From Bugulina stolonifera (taxonomy: Eukaryota > Bryozoa > Gymnolaemata > Cheilostomatida > Bugulidae), in NCBI GenBank assembly GCA_935421135.1, contig OW285194.1:1944501-2008500 (forward strand): a stretch of 64,000 nucleotides of DNA, given 5' to 3'. Position 1 is the first letter of the stretch. Each line of letters opens with the position of its first letter. The translations under genes were made by a program, and so were the position numbers. Below the pieces are notes generated by a model that was not told the origin of the DNA, did not search any database, and worked only from the letters and a program-made list of their open reading frames with translations. This document shows positions 38,301 to 64,000 of the stretch, piece after piece.

Positions 38301-40904
38301 ATGTTAACGCCCATGTAGAGAGGCAAAAGACCCTCAATATATAGAAGAAGGAAAGCCTGGTGGAAGCGAGGCCAACCTACAGAGCCAGTCACAGATGAAT
38401 CCAATCCAATAGTTACCTGTGGGACGACAGCCCGCAGCCAGCCGACATGGCACAGACCGCTGGACGCCACCGCTGACGTTTTTTACTTCTTTCACAAGCA
38501 AGCTATTCCGGTGACCCAGACAAACCGTGAGATCGAAATAGATCTACCTACAGGGGTCAAACTAGTGCACTTTCACCAGCGTGAAAGTCACAACCACAAT
38601 AGACCATTGTCTACTGTAGACGTTATATCACCAGGTGTTGAAGACGTAGGGACAGCCAGCACATGTATAAGGGATCAGAATCCAGCCAGATTCACCAGTT
38701 GTCCAGTTGCAGTCAACCACACAGTTTCCAGGGCACAGTCAACCAGCCACTCTTTTCAAGCTCTGCCAGTAGACGATGCCTTTTCTACCGTCGACCTACG
38801 CATAGCTCCGACAGCTCTTTTGATGTAGAAGCTGCACTCTTGTTCTTAGACGACGAGGACCTACACTCGGGTCTCGGGACACCCACGAGGAATGAGGTCG
38901 TATCAACAAAACATTACAAAAACCTCCCAAAACATTACAATAATATATTAACTACATGTACAGTTAAAACAGTTTAAACAGAATCTAAGCTATTTTAAAA
39001 TATAGTAGACAGACTGCATAACAAGTAGTGTCAGAATATTGATCAAACCTACAGTGATGCCATCCACCTATTCTGATTTACATGTACACAACTTATTGTT
39101 GATCATGATAAAGATAACATAGTTGATTTGCGGACACATATACTAAAATATCCAGTGCAATCAAACTTTCAGTGGTGATCATATTAAATTTTAGTCTGGG
39201 AGCTACTTCCAATTACCATTATTATTCTCCAGTATGCTACCTTTTCCGTTCATACATGTAAAGTTGTAATTTTTATTTTAGATCATGACATTCACAGTTG
39301 ATCTGTTAGAGGAGTGTTATGAGGCAGGTAGGGCTGAATTGATTCCATTCCTCATAGACTGGTCTGTTTCGTGTATTAACCAACAGAACTGCATTCATAC
39401 AGGTGATGGATGGGTAAGTAATTATGTCAACCTGGTGAAGGTACAGTACATGTGCAAATGAACTACCTGTGAGACAGATATAAGCATATTTAATAGCAAG
39501 TAGATCAAGTGAACTTTTGCACAAGTGCCTTTTACTCTGGCATAGATAGTAGATTCTAGCAGAACTGGCTCTGATCTGTTAGACGATGTATGTTGCAATT
39601 CACTGCTTAGAGAATAAGCTGCTGTTGGGTTCTATGGCTGCCTGTCACATTTCCACATGCTTTTAATCTACGTGTACATGTACAATGCACAATGTATATT
39701 ATTAATTTGGAATATTTCAGACACTTACCAATGCATCTAAATCTACAAAATGTATAAATGAGTCTGTCAATTATAACAGGCTGATATACTAACTATTCTT
39801 CCAACTACGTCAGACGGCAGTTCTATAATGGCACCACTAAATTCTCAACAAGGAAATAGTATTGCTATTGAGAAAGATGTCATTTCAGATGAAGAAGATC
39901 CACTTTATGTCACATCTTCTGGTTCCTCTTCAAAACCGTCAAATGTAAATTCATCAATTCTTTCGATAGAGCGTAATTTGGCAAAATCATTTCCCAATGA
40001 TGAAACTCTGAAGGATAATACGTCCTTACCTTCCATAGACAAAGAACTATTAGACTCATCAACAGGAAATGAACTAATACTCTTAAGATGTTCTTGTGGC
40101 AACGAGAAAAACATGACAAGAATTGGCAACTTCTTTGGTGCTTGTGAAGAATCTGGATGTGGGAAAGTGACATGCTCACTGTGTTCTGGAACATTTGCCG
40201 CTTCAGGAACTTTCACCCATTTAAACGCGCACAAACTTAAAAAGAAGAGTTTGGTCACTAAAGAGCATGTCAAGAACAACACTGAGGCATACAATGCTGT
40301 CTGCTGCAACTGCAAGAGTTCAAACTGTGTTAGACTTGCTCAAACAAAATATCTAGGTAAATGTAAACTCTGTAAGATGAATATATGCTTATACCCTGGT
40401 TGTGGAAAGTCTGGCAAAGCTAACATAGTATATATGCACATTTATCACAGACATTTTGGGGGTATTGTGCCACGAAGACTAAAACTTTCTGAATCTCGAG
40501 AGCTCCGCTTGCTAAAGTGTGGAACATGTAAGAATATTTCAAATATGGTAAGAGACAGAAAATTTTGGAGTAAATGTGGGACACCTTCCTGTAAGGATTA
40601 TGGAATTGTTTTTTGTCTAATATGCGGTTGCAAACCTGGTGTTCGGTGGAGGGCGAATCACTTAAGGTACCATGGGGCTGAGAGTTATAGTTTGATAACA
40701 GATGAACATGTTGACTCCAACATGAAGCTCTACAACAAAACATGTGGAAACTGCAAGGTACAGAGCTGTGTTCAGTATAACTTACCAACAACACGAAAAA
40801 TAGCAAAGTGCAAATGTTGTACTTATTATGTATGTATGTTTCCTGATTGTGAGAGATATTATTCTAAAGCGAGCTCGATGCAAACACACTGTTCTAGGCA
40901 CTAA
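35341..40904 (+). CDS. Cys/His-module protein, paralogue A (5 exons, 537 aa)
   Basis: Exons 35341-35423, 35808-35947, 36520-36653, 39282-39413 and 39780-40904 join in phase across GT-AG introns. The N-terminal half is a Lys-rich conserved region (residues about 28-162) with KWDPLKYSKY, HPTYKSS, NNNVTWYQISE and CINQQNCIHTGDGW. A Ser-rich linker follows, then two similar modules of about 125 residues (about 245-370 and 382-508). Each module carries repeated C-X2-C, C-X4-C and H-X3/4-H pairs (CSCGNEKN, TCSLC, CCNCKSSNC, CKLCKMNICLYPGC, HIYHRH), enough ligands for several zinc ions. The last part of each half-module resembles a C2H2 finger. Nucleic-acid or protein binding is plausible but inferred. 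The neighbour at 41544-45076 is a tandem paralogue with the same exon plan. Intron 3 (2.6 kb) holds retroelement 2. I recognise no family. Confidence 0.8.
35596..35698 (+). repeat. 14-bp minisatellite in intron 1 of paralogue A
   Basis: About eight tandem copies of CTGACCTTCACATG (with T for C at one site in some copies), inside intron 1. Confidence 0.9.
36779..37150 (+). pseudogene. Gypsy-type Gag fragment
   Basis: 123 residues open, ending in TGA, with reading possible back to about 36750 (FDDVAEAGMLFQKARN). The LVHIAYQELPEAHHRVL and NSLEDRHLQRQL blocks match the pattern of Ty3/Gypsy Gag, in which an aromatic-Pro block is followed by a LxDxxLR block. No CCHC knuckle was found after it. Confidence 0.65.
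37620..38102 (+). pseudogene. retropepsin-like aspartic protease fragment
   Basis: The frame around 37620-37715 gives VPSLYVRGRLCDQEVNLVLDTGCTT with the Asp-Thr-Gly active-site triad. After stops or a frameshift, 37740-38102 continues with DGSTLKFEGLVRLAIVIG and EDDIIGMPYL, the usual second half of a retroviral-type protease. The break between halves shows decay. Confidence 0.7.
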
Positions 40905-41543: not shown

Positions 41544-44500
41544 ATGACATCAATTACCGACCTAACTATAGAATCTACTACTACTAGCACCACCAGAGAG
41601 ATAATACTGGCATGCATTGCTAACAGGTACATGTACATGTATAACATAATATTATGTTGGGATTTCGTGGTATACTGGGTATTACTCATTTACAGTTGTC
41701 TGTTGAATGGCATGGTATCAGACAGTATGTGTTCTAGATTGTACATACATTGTATTAGATGTCCACAAATATTTCAGAACGAACAAAAGTGTCTCTGATA
41801 GTTTATAACACCACAGGTTAAGTAAAGACATCAAGAAAAACAAAATTAAGGATTTAATAAATACATATCTAAAGAAAGATAAAGACATTGGGAATGCAGA
41901 ATGGGATCCAGTAAAATATTCTAAATATTGTGAGGTTCTCTACTCACCAGGTATTATGAACGTGGAAAAAATGCTGTCTATAAAAATTACTTTAATTTTA
42001 CATTAGTCTATAAATGATCACAGAACATGTACCATTGTACCATTGATTGTGTAACTAACTAGATCTAAAACTTTAGCCCAAAACAATATAACTGGTAACC
42101 AGCATGAAAAGAGCCTTGATTTGATTCTCAATTCTATCCTCATTAAGCTGTTGGATATAGTAAGATGAAGGATCTACATGCACAATAGTAGAATTAATTG
42201 AGGAGGAGAGCCCAGCTAGCAGGCATGTCGGTGTTGTTTATTAAAAAGGGTTAGGGGGAAACAAACTATTATTTAGCAGACCAACGTCTGCATGAAGGAA
42301 AGACTATTTCTGAGCAGACAGTAGGTGCTGCTCCATGGTCACTTTAAATGTACTGAAGCTGATAATAAATAGTTATTCTGAGAGCTTTGTTAACAAAAAA
42401 TCCAAAGTTGGTCTACAAATTTCTGAATGTATTTACTATATTAGACGTATTTAGAAACTGTACTGGTTCATATAGGACTGCTTTAAATATCCGAACACAA
42501 CTTGAGTGTTCAGGCGTGACTAATGCTTGATTTGAAGGGGCTTCCCCTTGTTTACGATAAATATTATTACCAGGCACGCGTTATAGCTAGCGCTATATTA
42601 TTGAATAAAATATATTGTTATTGCCGCAGATTGCTATTTATAAGCTTACACGGTGCAATATCCAAATATGCCTATTATGTCTTTCAGCTGGTTGCTACTT
42701 GAAGCCACAATTAGGCCTACTATATATATATTTCTATTCATCACATAAATTCTTACACATAGGATAAGCACTATATTGTTACTCAACCTATTAGTACAGT
42801 ACATGTATAAGACAAGTGAGTGATACCCCACGATTCACATGTAGTGCTGTATTTTTATTGTTAAACAGAGAGAACTTACCAGAGATGTGACATAAAGAAG
42901 TACACAGATGGTAAAGCGTTTATATCATACTTGGAACGACATCCGACATATAAGTCATCACGGTTACATAATAACAATGTCTCATGGTATCAGATATCTG
43001 AGGTGAGTTTTACCAAAACTGTCATGTTATTGATGGGCTTTACTTCTCAGTCATTATTATATTGGCAAATAGATATACATTTCTAGCCATCAATGCCAAC
43101 ATACTGTTTAACTCAGGTAACCCAATTAAATCCAAAATTCTACCAGTTCCACGTGAGTTTGCATTCTGTCAGACATGTAGTGTATTATAACAAGTATAAC
43201 TGACCTTTACATTGACAGTCCTGGTAACCACACAACTGGAGTCTTTCTATTCAATGCAGACAAGAGTTCGTTTTCAGTCGGTTTTAGGCAAATTTTAGTA
43301 CGCATGCAATTTCCGAAAGAATTTCGCACTTTTCTTGGTAACACTAAAACAATTTGCAAATCCAGAAAGAAGAGTCTTTAAATACCAGCAAAATCAGTCA
43401 CTGCAATAAAAAAAAACATTTTCTGTTTCATTTTATAAAGTTGCAATACGATATTTTAGATCATAACATTCACAGTTGATCTGTTGGAGGAGTGTTATGA
43501 GGCAGGTAGGATTAAGTTGATTCCATTCCTCATAGACTGGTTTGTGTCGTGTATTAACCAACAGAACTGCATTCATACAGGTGATGGATGGGTAAGCAAT
43601 TATGTCAACCTGTACAGTACATGTGCAAATGAACTTTCTGTGATATATCAGCATAATAAACTGAATAAACTGTGTTTTGCTCTGACATACTAGTTACATA
43701 TGTACACTTATGATCTAGTACAGCTGGCTCTGTACTGTTGGGCAATCTCTCCATGTATGTAGTCATATTTTGCAGTTTCTTAACCGCCATTTTACGCTGA
43801 TATGTTTTTCATTGGCTAATTTTTATGTTGAACTATATGTACAGGTATATAATAATTCAGAATTATTATGTTTGATGATGTACCTAAACAAGCGTGTGAA
43901 TTATATATATAACAGGCTGACATACTGACTGCTTTACCAAGTACTTGGAACGACAGTTATATATTGGCACCACTAAATGCTCAACAAGGAAATAGTATTG
44001 CTCTTGAGAAAGAGGTCATTTCTAAACAAGAAGATTCATTCTCTATTACCCCTTCTGGTTCCTCTTCAAAACTACCAAATGTCGATTCATCACAACTTCT
44101 TTCCGTAGAACCGAGTTTGGAAAAGATGTCTTCTGATGATGAAATTCTGAAGGAGAGCACTTCTTTCCTTTCCATAGACAAGAAACTTTTAGACTCATCA
44201 ACAGGAAATGAACTAATCCTCTTAAGATGTTCATGTGGCAACGAAAAAAACATGAAAAGAATCGGCAACTTCGTTGGTGCCTGTAAGGAACCTGGATGTG
44301 AGAGATTTACATGCTCACTGTGTTCATCAACATTTGACAATTATAAAGGCGCTTACAATCATATAACCAGACATAGACTCCAAATGAAGAGTCCCGTCAC
44401 CAAAGAGCATGTCAAGAATAACACTCAAGCATACAATGCTGTCTGTGGTAACTGCAAGAGTTCAAACTCCGTCAGGTCATTTCTTATGCAATTTACCAAA

Positions 44501-45076
44501 CATGCCAATGTCACTAAATATCTAGGTCGATGTAAACTATGTAAGAAAGAAACCTGCATGTATCCTACTTGCGGAGTGTCAGGCAATTATCATGCACTAT
44601 ATATGCATATCCGTCACAAACATTTAGGAGATGTTGTACCAAGAAAACCAAAGCCACCATCTGAATCTCGAGAGCTTCACTTGCTGAAGTGTGGAACTTG
44701 TAAGAGCATGTCCAACATGGTGAGAGATGGAAAGTTTTGGAGTAAATGTGGGACACCTTCCTGTAAGGATTATGGGATTGTTTTCTGTCTAATATGCGGT
44801 CGCCAAACTCTTGCTTCGCGGAAGGAGAATCACTTACAGTACCATGGGGCTGACAGCCATAGTTTGATAACAGATGAACATGTTGACTCTAACATGAAGC
44901 TCTACAACAAAACATGTGAAAACTGCAAGGTACAGAGTTGTGTTCACTATAGCTCACCAGCAAGACAAATTATAGGAAAGTGCAAGTGTTGCACTCATTA
45001 TGTATGTATGTTCCCTGGCTGTGAGAGGTATTATTATAGTTTGAGTTCGATACATGTACACGGCAACAGGCATTAA
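41544..45076 (+). CDS. Cys/His-module protein, paralogue B (5 exons, 547 aa)
   Basis: Exons 41544-41626, 41817-41950, 42869-43002, 43460-43591 and 43916-45076 join in phase. Exons 1, 3 and 4 have exactly the same lengths as in paralogue A (83, 134, 132 bp), and all intron phases match (2, 1, 0, 0). Conserved landmarks: MTS-Thr-rich start, EWDPVKYSKY, HPTYKSS, NNNVSWYQISE, CINQQNCIHTGDGW, APLNAQQGNS, and the two Cys/His modules (CSCGNEKN through HIRHKH; CGTCKS through HVHGNRH). Module 1 has a 12-residue insertion after SNSVRS compared with A, and one Cys of the A module (SNC) reads SNS. Both copies keep intact frames and cluster most substitutions outside the zinc ligands, so both are probably functional. 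Molecular role unknown. Confidence 0.8.
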
Positions 45077-52986: not shown

Positions 52987-53661
52987 TGTAATGGTACGCA
53001 CAGTCGTCTCCTATCACCTGACACTCATTATTATGTGTGCTTACATGTATATATCTGCTTGCATACTGTACTACTTACCTATATACCATTGTACATTCAT
53101 GTATGGCAATTACTGAGTCTTTTAGTGCCTTTTATACCCATGTAAAGAGGCCCGACCTCTCAGAATCACTTGATATTCATTTTTTACATGAATTGGATGA
53201 TTATAAGCAACTTTTGTATAACCCGACCCATTTTGGGTCGGCCGTCGGGCTTCCGGCCGCCATGTAGTTGCGCAACTTCCGGACGACCTTGTGTCGTCTT
53301 TTCCCCACACTACGTCGGGCGGAAGTTCTTATACTATATAAAGGACACTGTTTTATCGTTTGTTGTCTCAGTCTTTGCTTGGCTTTCAATAAAGACACAT
53401 CTATACTTGATACAGAGACTTTCACTTCCTTTGGTCTGGGCATTCGCTTAGCGAACCGCCTACTAGGTTGGATCACTCTCTTTCATAGTATAGTCTGAAG
53501 GCTAGACTTGGGACCAGATGGGTCGTCTCTGGTAGTACTTGGACTACTGAGACCGCTCGATCTTTCATGTAATGAGAAGGCCTAGCACCACTCATAGGCA
53601 CTTCAGTTTTGGGTCGGCAGTCGTCCAAGGACTACCGCACGAAATACCAGAAACCATTACA
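52987..53661 (+). repeat. solo LTR (675 bp) with perfect 4-bp duplication
   Basis: It runs TGTAATGGTACGC to CCATTACA, flanked by GTAC on both sides (52983-52986 and 53662-53665). It has the family's ACTATATAAAGG and TCAATAAAGACAC regions. Confidence 0.95.
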
Positions 53662-54591
53662 GTACTTCACCTTTGGTATTCAGTTATTCTGCAATGTTAT
53701 ATCTAATGCCTTATCATAATAGTGATCCATTTTGTAAATTAATGTTATTATAGAGCTATCATCATGGAGTAGCTAAGATAATGAATGTGTAATAAAGTGG
53801 TCAAGAAGGCAAACTACGCCAGGGTTCACTATGACAATGCCTCACCTTCTCTATTTATAAATATATGTTATTATGATTATTATTTGATATTTTTTAATAA
53901 AGTGATGGAGCATTGTATCTAAAAAATCTCGCTTCTCTTCATGTATGAACTGTATATGTAACTATTGATTATCATTTGACCACAAAAATACCAGATGACA
54001 GGAGTATACCAAATGGAAACAACATCATATTTTGTGTTGTGAGCAGAAGAAGTTGTATCGCAGTAGACTGAATTTGATTCTCCATCGTCAAATGAGGACA
54101 CACCTATCCCAGTTATTGTACTCTGTATTTAGATACCCTAGATGGATTTACACTTTGTTCCTTCTGATGAAACACAATTCCTGTCATTATTACAGTGTTA
54201 GCAGAGATCAAGGGTCAAGGGTCAACCTGCCACTGGTTGTGTCATTGAACCATCAATTGTGTATTAATAGAAATTGTACTAACTGCTGTACAATCATTGT
54301 GTTGGGAGTTTTACCCCTGTAGCTACATCAATTCCCTAAACTCACTTATTCTACATGTACATGTAATCTGAACTTTGTTAACTTAAAAAATAGTGGCAAA
54401 AGGATTATGTTGTTTCTTTTGTAGAGTATAACACTTAACAAGGTATGCACACCAAACCTAGTTATATTATTTTAATATAAAGCCTTCACGTTTATTGCTA
54501 TTTGTAATATATACTAGTCATACAATCTACTGGGAGGTAACTTACTGATAACTTTCAATATTGTTATATTGTGGAAAGATTCATTGGGAGC
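53662..54591. other. intergenic, nothing recognised
   Basis: AT-rich; includes a short GATCAAGGGTCAAGGGTCAA direct repeat near 54208. No gene seen. Confidence 0.4.
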
Positions 54592-55482: not shown

Positions 55483-58400
55483 ATGGCTGATAATAAAGAA
55501 GAGAGGTGTGTCTATTGCTTGTCTACACCCATCGAGCCAAGACAGCTACCATGTCATCATGTATCTTGCTTGCAGTGTCTCAGCGATGACTTCATGCAGC
55601 GCCATGGATTGACATGTGCCATTTGCAGGTGCATTTTAGTCTCATCTGTCCAAATACCTTTCTGTACATGTACATTGTAAGTTACTGTAAGTCACTTGTA
55701 AGTCACCTGTAAGTCACCTGTAAGTCACCTGTAAGTCACCTGTAAGTCACCTGTAAGTCACATTGTAAGTTACCTGTAAGTCACATTGTAAGTTACCTGG
55801 TTTCAATATGCATCCAACCAAAATTAAACTATACATTAAAACACACAGTTCAGCGCTCATGTCTTTTATAGAAGAGACTTCCCTGGAATAGAGTTACATC
55901 ATTTACCCAAACTGCATCCAGGTGGAAGTGTAGAGGTCTGTGACAGCAAAGATTGTAAAAACCTAGCCGAGACCAAGTGCCTAGACCGTGAACTTAAGTT
56001 GGGCTCTCAACATTGGAAGGTAATATTTAACAAAGTTAGTAACATGCCTAACAACACAGGCCACATTGGAATAATTTGAAATTGTTGTGAGTTGTCTCCC
56101 AACACCTGCATTTACCCCAGCTGTATAGTCTTGGGTAAATATCAAAGTGCTCACAGTAGAGATGCAGATACATTGTACTTATCTAAAATGGTAAGAATTC
56201 TCAAAACTTCTATACTTTATTGCTCTTTTTTTATAAATTTATGCTTCATCTACAGTGCAACCGTATTTCTCTTTCAGTTAGATGTAGTAGTATGAAATAA
56301 TATTAATGTGTCATATTCTCTTAGGATCATGATGGGGATCACAATGATGACTCACTAGTAACTCGTGGTCACCATACCTCTAGTAGTACTCAATCGGATA
56401 ATTGTGAAGAACACCAGAAACCTGCGACGAAAGCATGTGAAGTCTGTAACCAACTTTTCTGTCCACATTGCATTGACTCTGGAGGTAGCAAAGGTATACT
56501 TATTAAATGCTCAAGATATGAATGAATATGAAATGTATGACACCAAGTGTATGGTACCAAGTGAAAAGAGATTCAGTCTGCATGAAACTGAACTTCAAAA
56601 TTTATGCGAAACCAGATTCTGAGCCATGTGAAACTAAAAGTTTATCTAAAGTTAAAACATTGAAATGAGATTGAATTGAAATTTAGAATATTGACGCAAT
56701 TGAGTATAAAATAAAATTGAAACATTAGTTTCACATGGTCTAGCATGAATAGGCAATGGTGCTGACTCTTCTTTATATATGAGCAACTTCTTAAATAACA
56801 GTGTATTTTCTTAACAAGTCCGCTGTTATGGGGTGTTAGATAAATCAGTACTTGATACCATTAGGCTACTCGGCAATTGTATAAAGGGCAAGGTCACACG
56901 GATACGAGAACAGGTCAGTACAGTTTCAAAGCAGCAGTGGGACAGTGGACAGTGGTCAGTGCTACTCTTAACCTACATGTATGTCCTTCGGTTGCTGTCA
57001 TGAAACTTAGCCATCCTCATCAACAGACCTCAGAAACTTAATCTTGTACATGTATGAGTGACAGGAGCTATGCTCTGGGTGAAAGAGCTCACCTTCCACA
57101 ACAGGGGTGCATGATTTCAAACCTGTGACCACTAACACTGTCCTTGCCACCCCAATGTGTACCTGCCCGCTGTGCATTGCACATAATATTAAGATTTACC
57201 ATACTATAATTTGCACTGCAATATTAACTTATATAATAATTATATTAAATTATATAATTATATTCTTAAAAGGAACATCCAAGCACAAGCTTGTTGACTT
57301 GGTTGTCTGGGAAAAGCAACTTGTGTCTAAGCTAACAAAACTCAAACATATGACATTTGTAAAAAGAGATAAACTCATTTCACTTCACAAAACTGCTGAG
57401 AGACTTCAAGAAGAGAAATCAGAGGAAGCCAATGAACAAGTATGTCACTAAAATAATTTGTAACTCTCAAATTTATCATCTGGTCTCTCAGACTTTCACT
57501 GCAAATTTTGGCCCCCTACCCACAATAGACACATCCAACCAGAATGAACGCTACCACCCACAATGGATACCCCACCCAAATTCTTAATCTCCCTGATTTC
57601 TATCAGTGAAACTCAGCAAGCCTGTCGCGAAATATTAATAGCAACAGCATTGCACCGACATCAAGCACAGTGTTCAATATAAACCATCATTTTGTTCACT
57701 ATCATGCAGTGTCAGCTTTTCTCAAAGTGATGGAGCTTACCCTAAAGCAGAACTGGTGTGAGAACTGTTACATTCAATGAGAATAGTGGTTTTTTCTACT
57801 GTTGTTGTTATGGCACATCAGAGTTTCTTAGCTATGCAAATCCAGAGAATAAATCTGCAATGTTTTCATGACAATAATTGTTTTATAATCAGTTCTGGTA
57901 GATGTGTAATTTATGATCTAAATTTAACAGTATTTCAACAGCTACTGTAATTTAAAGTGCATAAGTAGTAAAATTGTTGCTATGTTGTATCTTTTTAGCA
58001 TCGGCTAACCTTAGAGGCACAATCTGTCTGCATCATGTCGGAACAAAATTTGGAGAAACATGATAAAATATTTAAGGAACTACGTGTAAGTGGTGGAACC
58101 TCAGCTGAAAGTGTGATTGAGAAAGCTAAGCTAGTACAAATCTGTTCAGAAGCAATGTCAGAAGTAGATGCAGTGTTTGAGAACTGTCAGAAGAAGTTGA
58201 ACACTTTTTTAAACTCTCAAGGTGATGTTATACATGTACATGTATTTACCATTGATGTGTTTAGAAACATTGTCCCTGGTAACTGGTTGTGAGGGCAGGT
58301 TTAGTTTAACTAATATAAATTACATATTTTTCCCACATTAGGCATGCATGTGCCTGTAACGCAATGCAAGATACCCATATACATGTATATTGTACATTTT

Positions 58401-61400
58401 ATCTATTACTCTTGTCAGACATCTACACTGTGGGTACATAAAATTATGTGTATCCACGTACCACATTTACAGAAACTAGTGCTGGATATGACAGACAGAA
58501 TCAAAGTGAGAAAGCTTTGGAAATGCGGAGCACAGACTCAGACCTTTCTGATACAGAGGATGTGTCCCCAAATCCAAAGATAACTTTGCAGCCACGGCCG
58601 ACTACAAAAAAGAGGATCTTGAATCTGTATTTTGCATCAGAAAAAGTATGTGGTGCACTATTTAGTACCACATGCATATACAGAATATGACTTTAATTAG
58701 AATATATATACACTGAACAGTCTCCGCATAGTGAAGTGGCTCCTTTCTGAGCAATTGAGATCTTTGGCATTCTGTATGACTGCAATATTCAACTTTCACA
58801 GAACTAGCTTTTTAAAAAACAAATAAAAAAGTTTTTTTTTAATTTATATCTTACCAGGGATTGGTGTTTTGAAAAAATTTACTTTGGCAGCAGTATCTGT
58901 TGCCGTGGTGAATAATAAATTATTCAAATAGTACAAGTTCATGTTCAAGTGTATCGTGCATCTTGTGTGGACATGTAGGTATACAAGATGAGTTCACCAA
59001 CCAGAGGCCGAGCCTTGATTATCAATAACTTTCCTAGCAACCCGATTGGAAACAGGTGGGAGTCGGAGTTGGACGAGGAGAACATGAGTCAAATGTTGAA
59101 GAGCTTTCAATTCGAGGTAGTAGTACGAAAGGAGTGCACTGCAAAGGTAAGAGTACCATCATACAGAAAATCTATTATAATGGTTTCAATGTTTGCTAAA
59201 TTGTCTTTGATTAGTATTTTTTGAGTTTCTTGCAAATGCATTGCACCATTCCATGGTCAGAGTGAGGGTACTAGGGAGTGGGAATGTCTACTCACCTCAT
59301 GTTTTTGGACAGATCGCGGGTAAGTTTATATCCTCATGTATTGCTAGTTTGATTGAAGCAAAATTCACTTAGTACATGTATAATATATATTGCTACTATA
59401 CGTGTAACTGAGTTGATGTAACCAAAGAAAAGTTTTGTAAATTTGACATCAGAATAGGTGGAGTTAACTCTGACTAATGACATCACTGTAGGCATTTTAG
59501 AAACTTTGTGGTTTGATCAAAATACTTTAGATGTCTTTATGTATGTACATGTATAATATACATTTATATAAATAAAGACGTCTAAAGTATATATTATATA
59601 AAATAGAGGTATCAATATCAAGTAATGGTGATATAGCTGGTTTGCAGAAAAGAATTCTGAAATTTTCAATAGAGTCCAATTTTAACAGGTCGTTTTAAAG
59701 GGGTTATGCCATGCTTTTTAGGTAGCATTAAGGCGCTGTCAGCTATTTGGTGGCATAATACATGTATATTGAGTGTCTAGATATTTACTAATCTAGTACT
59801 GAAGTAGTTAGCCCATGCTTGTGCCTTCCGGGCTATATTTAGAACAACTAGACCACAACACAATGTATAGGCATAGAGAACACAATAATAACCGCAGTAT
59901 ATATTGTGGCCAGATCCACTACCAGACCTACCAGTAAAGGGAGCTACTTATTGCCAACAAAAGCGAGGTCCAAAAAATTTCAAAAACTTGCACAAGTTAT
60001 CCTACAGCTATATTAGTAAATCCTGTGAAATCATTTGTTTGCTACTGTACTCTTTCTATGCAAACAGCTTGAATTCAACAATTTTCTCTATGTGACATAA
60101 AGCACACAGTTGCATCTTCATAACAAAGTTGTGTTCAAAGCAGCATTGAATAGTGATAATGAGTCAAGCATGGGCAAGAGGACACAGCTCCGCTTATAGT
60201 AGTGCAAATGCAACAGACCTAAGTAAGAAAGATTGCATTGAACATAAACGTAAACCACATGTCATAACCTCTTTAACTACAATTGGCTGTATGTAGGCCT
60301 AAATTCTACAGCATATAATAATTATTATAAAACACACCCGATACCATCAGAATTACTCAAGTTGAAGATTTGAGAGATGGTGCTGTCTAGAAATTAATAT
60401 CTACACTCTGTTGTTTTATAGGAAATGATATCAACAATCCAAGAAGAGACTGGGCACAGAAGTCACCAGAGCTATGGAATGTTCTTCCTAATAGTTGCCA
60501 GTCACGGAACTACTGATGGAATACTTTGTTGCGATGGAAAGGTCGTGAAATATACTTCCGTTTACCAATTGATTTCCTCTGAAAGATTCCCATCGATGGC
60601 AGGGAAACCCAAAGTTGCCATCTTTAACTGTAATAGAGAAGGTGAGCTGTCAACAGTTGTAGGAAATGGGCAATATTGTAGTGTGATGTCCATGTGTTCT
60701 GTTTTACACAACAAATAGCATGTTGTGTCCTGGTATCATTTTATATTCATTGAACTGGCAACTGGCTGCCACGACAACAGTCATATTGTGGACACAGCGC
60801 TTGATTCAACAAGAAAACAAAGAAACTAATACTGCTAGCATTGAAACACTAACAATTGATTTGCTACTAGGCACATCTGATTGGCTAATGGCTGATATGG
60901 ATGTATAAAACATCTCACCAATATTAGAAATTCGAGTAAGCTACTAAAAACATGATGTAGTAAACATGCATGTACATGTACATGTAAGGTAAGCTTGATA
61001 GTGTTAGCATGGACATTGTACATATAAGAATAAAAGTTATTTGGTGAATTTGTAGTTAAGACTTTAGTGTCTTCGCGACCTCTGGAATCTGCCTGGGTCG
61101 ACCTCTGGGACCTGCCTGGGTTGATAGTGAAATTTCAGAGATGTGATTTTTTGGTCTGAGAAAACCACCCCCAACGGTACACCGAGGTTTCTCATGTGAC
61201 AACGAGAATTTTGCGTGTAGACTATGCGAGTCTGTGGCCAACGTGGTCTGGAAAATTATTGAGCAAGTTGGTTTATGCCTGGAATTTGGTGTAGGTCGTG
61301 AAGGCACTATATACAGTTTATAGTATGTTTCGGTTTCTTATTCTCAGTTGACAGCCTGATCTCTAACATAGTTGAAGTTGGAGCCCCTCAACTCAGAGTG

Positions 61401-63531
61401 CATCACAATGCTAACCAACACCATGTAGAAGACATGATATCATTTCACTCTTGCTTTGAAGGTAAATGTACCAGCTAAATGTACATGTCCTTTCCAACTG
61501 CCTAATATGCATAATATTCCTAAAGGCTTGTCTAAAATAGCATTAGTTAACTCTATTTTAGACAAGCCTTGAGGAATATTTTGGTGCTGTATTATTGTCT
61601 GCATTGTAAGTAATCAAACTCTATGCCAACTGTACTCACTGTATTAAGATATGACATTGGAGTTCTCAACAAACAGCTTCGTTTGAAGTTTGAGCTTTAC
61701 TACACCATAACATGTTTAGCTCTTGCCCATGAAATAACTCTGAATAATTTGAATAATGATGCTGTTTCACATGTACATGTCGGAGTAATAATGTGCTACA
61801 GGTGATGCACCACTGACGTACTCTCACCTAGGGAGTTTGTTTATAAGAACTCTAGTTACAACAATGTACAAGCATGCGTGCCATCGCGATCTAGCCACCA
61901 TATTTGATGTTGTAAGTAAACCATCATTTGAACCTACATTGTACAAGAAACATAAACAGTGCTGTCAAAGAGTTACACATGTACATATTTCATCTATTTA
62001 GATCCATTGATGTCCAATGGCTCTATCCCAGGAACCCATACCTCTCAATTGGTCAGTTTGTAGCCAACAAACAGTTTCAAACTGTGTATTGAAGAGGCTT
62101 TCTGAAAAATATCAGTTCCCCATAAATTGAATTCTCTGGAAATTCCTTATGATGGCGCTATCTGAATCTACTGATTTAGACAGCATATCTCATTATACTG
62201 CGTAGCCCATTGTTGTTAGTGATCAGCATAGTTAATACATTTGTATTATTGAAGTGTATTTTTAACATTGTGCGTTTGAGCTGAAGGTAACGATGCCAGT
62301 AGGTCTGCTGCCAGCCAATAATGTTCATAATATTTCAATGCCGCCATGTACCTTTATTATCCTTCTAGGTGCAGGAAAGGGTGAGAATGGCCTCAAGAAG
62401 GTTGGCAGAGAAAGAACCTCTGAAATACAGAGTTCAAATACCAGTGGTGACTAAGATTCTAACAAATTGCAGAAAAATATTCTTATTTCCTGGTCATGAT
62501 GGTTAGTTTAAACATTTATGTAAATAGGAATTTATTCAATACTGCAAGTATATTACCAAATTGCACTAATTAAAAGTTATCTAAAAGTAATCATAACGAA
62601 TCCAAGTTTATGCACACCTGAAACCTCTTTCTGCAGAGATGGAGCCAGAGATAGGTGATTATATGGCAAAAGAACTGACTGAAACAGGTCAAAAGTTGGA
62701 TGAGCTGGAACATAAACAAGGTGCGAATAATTTTATAGTAGTACTAGTATCCCCAGTAATGATTGGTTTATTAACCGCAGATGAGGTCGGGCTGACATAC
62801 AGTTTGCGTAATCATGCTGCTTTTAATCACCATAAAATATATTATATTGTTACACAAAATGTTTTAATAATTGAAACAAGAACCTGTATGGTACAGTACA
62901 GTACAATGCAGAGCTAAATTGTATTCAACTACATGTACATGTAAATTGATTGGTTTAGTGGTAGGTAAGACATGTCTATAGCCTCCAAGACAATGATTAT
63001 TTATAGCTTAGTCAGTCTAAGTGTATGCGTGTCTAATACAATGTACAGTAGCTTGTCCTCTATTCAAACCCTTAAAGTTCATCATGATTTATACACATGT
63101 ACACGTGTACACGTAGTACGGAGAGTGAAAAAGGTAATGTCGGGCAATAACAACCGCTTACAGCTAGCTTAATTTGCACTTTTTGATGTGGGTAAAATAT
63201 CTGACTGTTGAATATATCAGAATGTTTAAACAGTAAAGGCTTTCAAATACCAGAAATTTCTACTTTTCCATTTTAAACAGGTGGGATACACCAAAAGGAT
63301 TGTAGAGATAATTCCACAATGACTGAACACCCATTCATTCCATACTACAGTGACAGTGATGAGGGAAGTGAAGTCAGTGACCATCTGCTGTGTTTGGAGA
63401 CAGGACCAAGCGATGATCAACCAAAAGCTGTTCCACAAGCACTATTCGATGAAATTGACAGGTTGGTTTCACTGTCATTGGCATTTACTATGCTCACCTC
63501 TAGCAGCAGGAAGATGGAGTCTATTCAGTAA
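55483..63531 (+). CDS. TRIM-like RING/B-box/coiled-coil protein fused to caspase-like domain (13 exons, 698 aa)
   Basis: Exons: 55483-55628, 55872-56019, 56325-56484, 57273-57439, 57999-58221, 58473-58645, 58979-59146, 60422-60641, 61348-61461, 61802-61911, 62369-62501, 62637-62720, 63281-63531. Every junction is GT-AG and the phases agree. Residues 9-48 are a complete C3HC4 RING (C9, C12, C24, H26, C29, C32, C45, C48), the E3 ubiquitin-ligase signature. Residues 125-156 are a B-box with C125, H128, C136, C139, C144, C147 and H156 but one ligand missing. Residues 160-280 are helical, as in TRIM coiled coils. Residues 341-468 are a caspase p20 (YKM, RGRALIINN, ASHG with His423, MAGKPK) and about 498-583 a p10 (GSLFIRTL, KIFLFPG). 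The active-site block is NCNRE instead of QACRG. The tail is acidic. Ubiquitin-linked control of cell death or immune signalling is inferred. A downstream exon cannot be excluded, since AG-GTTGGT at 63463 could be a donor. Confidence 0.85.
55677..55796 (+). repeat. 11-bp minisatellite of splice-donor-like units
   Basis: Eleven GTAAGT words in about 120 bp, unit CTGTAAGTCAC, in intron 1 of the TRIM-caspase gene, 49 bp after the real donor (GTGCAT at 55629). Each unit matches the 5' splice consensus better than the real donor does. Confidence 0.9.
59522..59590. repeat. intronic hairpin (19-bp arms)
   Basis: ATACTTTAGATGTCTTTAT (59522-59540) and its near-exact reverse complement (59572-59590, one mismatch) in intron 7 of the TRIM-caspase gene, with an AT-rich loop containing TACATGTA. 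Perhaps a tiny MITE. Confidence 0.85.
61513..61580. repeat. intronic hairpin (28-bp arms, one mismatch)
   Basis: AAGGCTTGTCTAAAATAG pairs with CTATTTTAGACAAGCCTT, extended by AATATTCCT/AGGAATATT, around a 12-bp loop, in intron 9 of the TRIM-caspase gene. Confidence 0.9.
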
Positions 63532-63534
63532 TAC

Positions 63535-64000
63535 TGTAATGGTTTCTGTGTTTTGGTGCGGTCGTCCTTGGACGACTATCGACCCAGAAATGAAGTGCCT
63601 ATGAGTGGTAATAGGACTTCGCATTACATGAAAGATCGAGCGGTCTCAGTAGCCCAAATACTACCAAAGACGACCCATCTGATCTCAAGTCCGACCTTCA
63701 GACTATACAATGAAAGAGAGTAGTTCGACCTAGTAGGCGGTTCGCAAAGCGAATGACCTAGTAAAAGGAAGAGAAAGCCTCTGTATCAAGTATAGATGTG
63801 TCTTTATTGAAAGCCAAGTGAAGAATTAGACAATGAACAGTAAAACAGTGCCCTTTATATAGTATAAGGACTTCCGGCCGACGTGACGTCGGGAAAAGAC
63901 GACGTGTGGTCGTCCGGAAGTTGCGCAACAAGATGGCCGCCGGAAGCCCGACGGCCGACCCAAAATAGGTCGGGTTCTACAAAAGTTGCTTATAATGGTC
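63535..64000 (-). repeat. LTR, minus orientation, cut by window end
   Basis: It starts (as the LTR 3' end reversed) TGTAATGGTTTCTGTG four bases after the stop codon of the TRIM-caspase gene, preceded by ATAC (63531-63534). It closely matches the reverse of the 31044 and 34168 copies. Its far end and any internal region lie outside the window. Confidence 0.9.

Follow-up and report, generated by a model that had tools for sequence, protein, structure and literature searches.

A stretch of 64,000 nucleotides from the bryozoan Bugulina stolonifera (assembly GCA_935421135.1, contig OW285194.1, positions 1,944,501 to 2,008,500 of the forward strand), referred to here as the window, raises the question of whether a TRIM-like RING finger and B-box are encoded by the same gene as a caspase domain and, if so, whether the product is a protease or a regulator of proteases. 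The genome searched was B. stolonifera tzBugStol2.1 (234,951,659 bases in 27 contigs, labelled C1, C2 and so on; genome paper PMC10213821), in which the window represents C8:1944501-2008500; exon coordinates are given as window positions. The explanation that we judge best, and to which we would give roughly even credence when taken as a whole, is that a TRIM-like front end has been swapped onto a pseudocaspase of the ROCO family to form one gene, the product of which may regulate ROCO-caspases.

The gene model and its RING and B-box front end

Splicing of 13 exons between 55483 and 63531 yields a single frame of 701 amino acids running from an ATG at 55483 to a TAA at 63531 with no internal stop, and all 12 introns are GT-AG and consistent in phase. 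A gene model with a TRIM-like front and a caspase architecture is thereby obtained from the genomic sequence, and these two parts probably constitute one gene, which we infer to be transcribed as a single message. Exons with more than a chance resemblance to exons 6, 7, 8, 10 and 11 are present elsewhere in the genome, while the relative of exon 9 is weak (locus L032, E value 0.014). Exons 2, 4, 5 and 13, for which no separate relative was found at E ≤ 1e-3 among the best 64 of 303 candidates scored in one search, are predicted from splice signals and reading frame; a RING match at C11:10698503 extends into the part corresponding to exon 2, albeit through stops.

The RING finger was matched in the whole protein by the Pfam profile zf-C3HC4_3 at residues 6-51 (E value 4.8e-5, 23.5 bits against a cut-off of 27), all eight of its zinc ligands are present (C9, C12, C24, H26, C29, C32, C45 and C48), and its sequence matches in the PDB are RNF146 (8.6e-5), RNF168 and TRIM21 (3.2e-3). 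It is followed by a zf-B_box match at residues 121-150 (E value 5.2e-5, 23.8 bits against a cut-off of 24.1 in the whole protein), for which our own count gave seven of eight zinc ligands and the exon of which, taken alone in the genome-wide search, scored 27.4 bits and thus above the cut-off.

With exon 1 as bait, a threshold of E ≤ 10 gave 75 other RING matches, 23 of which reach E < 1e-3; a Pfam B-box match lies no more than 6 kb downstream in 13 of the 75. Among the matches listed, none of these 75 relatives lies within 40 kb of a caspase, the window's own B-box is the only one of 30 (E ≤ 0.01) located within 30 kb of a caspase match, and no second RING or B-box directly adjoins a caspase. 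A further screen with the RING profile PF13920, in which the best 150 of 161 candidates were scored, gave at least 77 matches, one of which (C5:7017270) is situated 21.6-23.0 kb upstream of a caspase, the ROCO exon belonging to that caspase being placed between the two; this screen is insensitive, as the window's own RING is absent from the 77 matches.

Loss of active-site residues from the caspase fold

The remainder of the predicted protein contains a p20-p10 caspase fold, as Peptidase_C14 matched residues 351-573 with an E value of 4e-30 and 105.6 bits against a cut-off of 21.4, covering profile positions 1-223 of 233; sequence matches in the PDB are chains of caspase-4, -11 and -1 (best E value 7.1e-17). 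Four active-site positions were checked and two of them are lost: the catalytic His (His426) and Arg368 are kept, the column of the catalytic Cys is occupied by Asn469, and that of the S1 Arg in p10 by Thr515. The p20 exon ends mostly in KPKxxxxQAC in the paralogs as compared to KPKVAIFNCN in the window, where 12 codons separate KPK from the phase-1 donor. A phase-1 GT is found at the identical distance in 16 of 20 paralog loci, and with this equal codon distance no gap is needed to align Asn469 with the catalytic Cys. Read plainly, the window caspase is very probably a dead protease.

Retention of the catalytic Cys is the rule elsewhere in the genome, being observed in 41 of 45 other readable loci: 20/20 in L029-L048, 19/20 in L049-L068 and 2/5 among L001, L002, L003, L005 and L007. 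This sample is not a random one, as L029-L048 were chosen by likeness to the window caspase and L049-L068 by hand among the Pfam C14 matches; L004 and L008 were omitted as duplicates of L046 and L032, respectively, and no match was obtained for L006. The loci without the Cys are L001, L005, L007 and L062, of which L007 (C1:3531534-3534764) likewise has Asn. The S1 column, located by eye five residues ahead of a conserved Gly (L045 being unmatched), holds Arg in 17 of 19 aligned paralog loci, Lys in L041 and Ser in L046.

The initial annotation of this locus had described thirteen phase-consistent exons giving one protein with a RING, a B-box, both caspase subunits and an acidic tail, and had put forward a caspase profile search as a check on itself. 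The exons, the RING, the subunits and the acidic exon 13 are borne out, and that search returned Peptidase_C14 at the score given above. Its B-box stands by the score of the exon and falls short by that of the whole protein and by one ligand. A working protease is not supported, in view of Asn469 and Thr515; its interpretation is thus supported for a single gene model with a TRIM-like front and caspase subunits, and it had missed the LRR-ROCO family origin described below. Neither sponges nor cnidarians, which it named for comparison, are the phylum from which the sequence comes.

The caspase half derives from an expanded ROCO-caspase family

Genome-wide counts are lower bounds because only part of the candidates was scored (for Pfam C14, the best 150 of 192), and matches were assigned to loci by our own grouping, which joined those that share a strand and are no more than 2.5 or 3 kb apart. 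At least 139 Peptidase_C14 exon matches in at least 96 groups were found, and a ROCO search gave at least 73 matches in at least 63 groups. Among the matches listed, 59 of the 63 ROCO groups are followed downstream, on the same strand and at no more than 12 kb, by a caspase match, and for 61 of 97 caspase groups a ROCO group lies upstream at up to that distance, the caspase list used for this pairing having had some second matches of listed loci left out and one further place added. A large upstream frame matching the ROCO baits was present in 18 of the 20 loci that were fetched (L029-L048), and all 18 of these ROCO-caspase loci, when read in detail, keep the catalytic Cys; the other two, L044 and L045 (C9:2964800-2974700 and C6:7152000-7161900), have ankyrin repeats instead of ROCO (Ank_2, 119 and 282 bits). 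Pfam results for Roc, COR-A and LRR come from three ROCO frames: Roc scored 27.9 bits in L037 (cut-off 27) and 21.4 bits, below the cut-off, in L031, COR-A was below its cut-off in L031 and L032, and LRR_8 was above its cut-off in L031 and below it in L037. The usual front end of the expanded family to which the window caspase belongs is, as predicted from these frames, LRR-Roc-COR, the LRR part having been seen in the fetched loci only.

Exons 6-8, 10 and 11 of the window gene belong to this family. Exon 6 resembles the acidic exon that lies between COR and caspase in the paralogs, with E values, from a comparison limited to a small number of upstream frames, of 1.4e-6 for L031 and 1.2e-5 for L040, others being weaker. 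In all eight loci in which this linker exon was read (L031, L033-L037, L040 and L042) it has an open frame, a phase-1 acceptor and a phase-0 donor, as in the window, and its donor is GT in five and GC in three related loci (L033, L036 and L037). The introns flanking exon 7, and those of exons 8 and 10, occupy by eye identical places in L032 and L035. Since the phase-1 acceptor is conserved, exon 6 needs a phase-1 donor upstream, and that of exon 5 lies 251 bases away; the linker homology and the phases together indicate that exon 6 is an internal exon, for which the nearest in-phase upstream coding sequence is the TRIM-like part. A search of the window with three ROCO baits was negative at E ≤ 0.01. 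The window gene thus shares the linker and caspase exons of the ROCO-caspases, with equal intron phases, and is without their LRR/Roc-COR front. A caspase half of ROCO-family origin joined through a matching phase gives the gene the look of a front-end swap, and the most likely origin suggested by the sequence is replacement of the LRR-Roc-COR front by a TRIM-like front at the phase-1 intron upstream of the linker exon.

Caspases with other upstream domains were also noted in the genome. DED matches lie upstream of a caspase at C4:16743548-16749362 and CARD matches upstream of a caspase at C9:15203886-15209955, and a FADD-like DED-Death pair is located at C1:15313881-15314504.

Features of the window

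The exons are listed in Table 1. Where the last exon ends is uncertain, as a dispersed repeat begins at its stop codon.

Table 1. Exons of the RING-caspase gene and the adjoining repeat, in window positions
Feature	Position	Strand	Content
Exon 1	55483..55628	+	Start codon, RING finger (residues 1-49)
Exon 2	55872..56019	+	Spacer between RING and B-box
Exon 3	56325..56493	+	Most of B-box (Pfam residues 121-150); last ligand in exon 4
Exon 4	57273..57439	+	End of B-box; charged, presumably helical region (by eye)
Exon 5	57999..58221	+	Charged, presumably helical region (by eye); phase-1 donor
Exon 6	58473..58645	+	Acidic linker; phase-1 acceptor, phase-0 donor; homologous to the COR-caspase linker exon of ROCO-caspases
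Exon 7	58979..59146	+	Start of caspase p20; Arg368 kept
Exon 8	60422..60641	+	Caspase p20; His426 kept (60503-60505); Asn469 (60632-60634) in catalytic Cys column
Exon 9	61348..61461	+	Intersubunit linker, start of p10
Exon 10	61802..61911	+	p10; Thr515 (61816-61818) in S1 Arg column
Exon 11	62369..62501	+	End of p10 (VQERV...FLFPG)
Exon 12	62637..62720	+	Part of the spliced frame
Exon 13	63281..63531	+	Acidic tail, stop; 3' end uncertain
Dispersed repeat	63532..63996	+	Begins at stop codon; inverted copy at 53200-53664; outside the gene

Copies of this repeat, 72-97 percent alike, are present at window positions 53110-53664 and 63532-64000 and at six further sites in the window; a longer copy at 4395-5881 matches past the right end of the window, and in the copy at L032 a few shared bases overlap the stop codon of the window gene. 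Intron 1 holds about 11 copies of an 11-base tandem repeat (55676-55799). Two similar long frames rich in Cys and His, of 375 and 387 amino acids and resembling repeated zinc fingers by eye, lie at 39777-40904 and 43913-45076.

Alternative explanations

A number of observations weigh against the explanation of a single swapped gene that encodes an inactive caspase acting as a regulator. The RING and the B-box both fall slightly below their Pfam cut-offs in the whole protein, and the proposed ligase activity and pairing rest on analogies. For the paralogs, a joint message of ROCO and caspase parts is predicted from the order, spacing and phases of these parts. In L031, L035, L040 and L042 (4/20) the phase-1 GT stands one codon earlier, after the Cys, and L041 and L046 have a changed S1 Arg column yet keep the Cys, for which reason the change at this column alone is no proof of inactivity. 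No homologue in another species was found in a protein database at E ≤ 1e-3 among 6643 candidates; a control search with the caspase part alone also returned nothing at that threshold (350 candidates), which suggests that the database is probably without animal caspases of suitable length and that the lack of an orthologue says little. Finally, the join between exons 5 and 6 is a prediction from genomic sequence, and an in-frame ATG within exon 6 could serve as the start of a caspase-only protein. This last point is shared by the alternative of two neighbouring genes, in which TRIM-like exons 1-5 have an end of their own and a front-less ROCO-caspase starts in exon 6; in its favour, read-through of the exon 5 donor also meets a stop within 71 bases (frame 57999-58292). 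However, the phase-1 acceptor of exon 6 is kept in 8/8 paralog loci, each with a preceding exon, and its phase matches that of exon 5. Moreover, neither AATAAA nor ATTAAA occurs between exons 5 and 6, although two AATAAA signals are situated in intron 6 (58822 and 58914). We therefore regard two separate genes as unlikely and retain the single swapped gene as the preferred explanation.

A single gene could still be a decaying or silent copy, of which the catalytic losses at two active-site positions would be the first pseudogene signs, and the repeat at the stop codon might be taken in the same sense. Such decay is difficult to reconcile with 13 exons that are free of stops and frameshifts, with GT-AG at 12/12 introns, and with a level of substitution resembling that of paralogs which keep the catalytic Cys. 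In a tree of the caspase exons, the deep branches of which are weakly supported and from which the nearest paralog is not resolvable, the window branch measures 0.54 as compared to 0.66 for L032 and 0.72 for L030. The proportion of nonsynonymous differences (pN) between the window and L032, L035, L029 and L031 is 0.32-0.34, the same level being observed among L032, L035 and L029; no rate ratio is claimed because synonymous sites (pS about 0.8) are saturated. Branch length and pN thus give the gene no look of decay, and a pseudogene appears distinctly improbable. Alternatively, the caspase might still be active by means of Cys468, which is adjacent to the usual position, one residue ahead of the catalytic column. 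The S1 Arg column is changed too, however, and a shift by one residue would need two compensating indels, since KPK and the splice site are exactly as far apart as in 16/20 paralog loci. Cys468 was rejected as the catalytic residue on this codon count, and an active caspase of this kind is in our view very hard to credit.

Relation to known systems

The nearest known systems are the ROCO-caspase loci of the same genome, which resemble the window gene in their caspase exons, acidic linker exon and intron phases, and differ from it in having a Roc-COR plus LRR-like front (18/20) or ankyrin repeats (2/20) and in keeping the catalytic Cys (20/20). The front end resembles that of TRIM (RBCC) E3 ligases in its order of RING, B-box and charged, presumably helical region; to our knowledge the known TRIM C-terminal classes include no caspase. 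A caspase fold without the catalytic Cys, placed behind another domain, is also the arrangement of c-FLIP(L), which carries two DEDs and pairs with caspase-8, whereas the window gene has a RING and B-box front. Three DED matches were found in the genome, none of them on contig C8, so that the tandem DEDs by which c-FLIP is recognized are lacking here.

In the literature searched, outside which most subscription journals lie, neither a RING-B-box-caspase nor an LRR-ROCO-caspase was found described, in keeping with the view of the initial annotation that no named family has the former order. Neither architecture is described in the available portions of PMC3196919, PMC7836458, PMC11378527, PMC8195603, PMC7159879, PMC3503706, PMC13326412, PMC12909245 and PMC10213821, and what follows applies to those same portions. 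MATH is listed among the TRIM C-terminal classes, in a main text from which the word caspase is absent (PMC3503706). The expanded caspases of amphioxus (PMC3196919) and bivalves (PMC7836458) display a similar shuffling of domains ahead of the caspase, and a mussel member of the family is without both Cys and His (PMC7836458); the words RING, TRIM and LRR are absent from the amphioxus main text (PMC3196919), as are RING, LRR, B-box and ubiquitin from the bivalve one (PMC7836458). TRADD-N domains that precede caspase domains are mentioned for sponges, along with further TRADD-N domains that are fused to TRIM domains (PMC8195603), so that domain shuffling is on record for caspases as well as for TRIM parts. 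An expansion of LRR-ROCO proteins has been described as candidate immune receptors in brown algae, three of which have an extra C-terminal peptidase domain; this peptidase is, in contrast to that of B. stolonifera, IPR009003, and the word caspase is absent from the main text (PMC11378527). The same source gives up to forty domain combinations for animal ROCO proteins, and a ROCO-caspase could be among them (PMC11378527).

Proposed role of the RING-caspase gene

The predicted product comprises, in this order, a RING, a B-box, a charged and presumably helical stretch, the acidic linker and a caspase fold whose active site would not be functional. The presence of a RING with all its ligands together with a non-catalytic caspase fold suggests a ligase that docks on active members of the family. 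By way of its p10 interface the pseudocaspase part may pair with active ROCO-caspases, in the manner in which c-FLIP(L) pairs with caspase-8, and the RING may then ubiquitinate these caspases or their partners. The threshold at which a sensor-to-protease pathway responds would be set in this way. By analogy with such systems, we put a regulator that acts by docking and ubiquitination at slightly under an even chance. As for the direction of its effect, a brake would be favoured over a promoter, since RING-driven turnover of the paired protease is the simplest outcome. A more far-reaching and rather doubtful proposal is that the bryozoan LRR-Roc-COR-caspases are one-chain sensors and that this gene, its protease silenced, is their dedicated E3-type brake or trigger of RING-B-box design.

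The occurrence in one bryozoan genome of about 60 places at which Roc-COR lies upstream of a caspase is arguably more striking than the RING-caspase gene itself. If the proposed role is correct, one polypeptide would unite a caspase-type docking surface with ubiquitin transfer, and the genetic route to this combination would be a clear one, namely the exchange of a front end at one intron phase. The family itself would then represent a direct sensor-to-protease receptor system of about 60 loci in a phylum whose immunity has been little studied.

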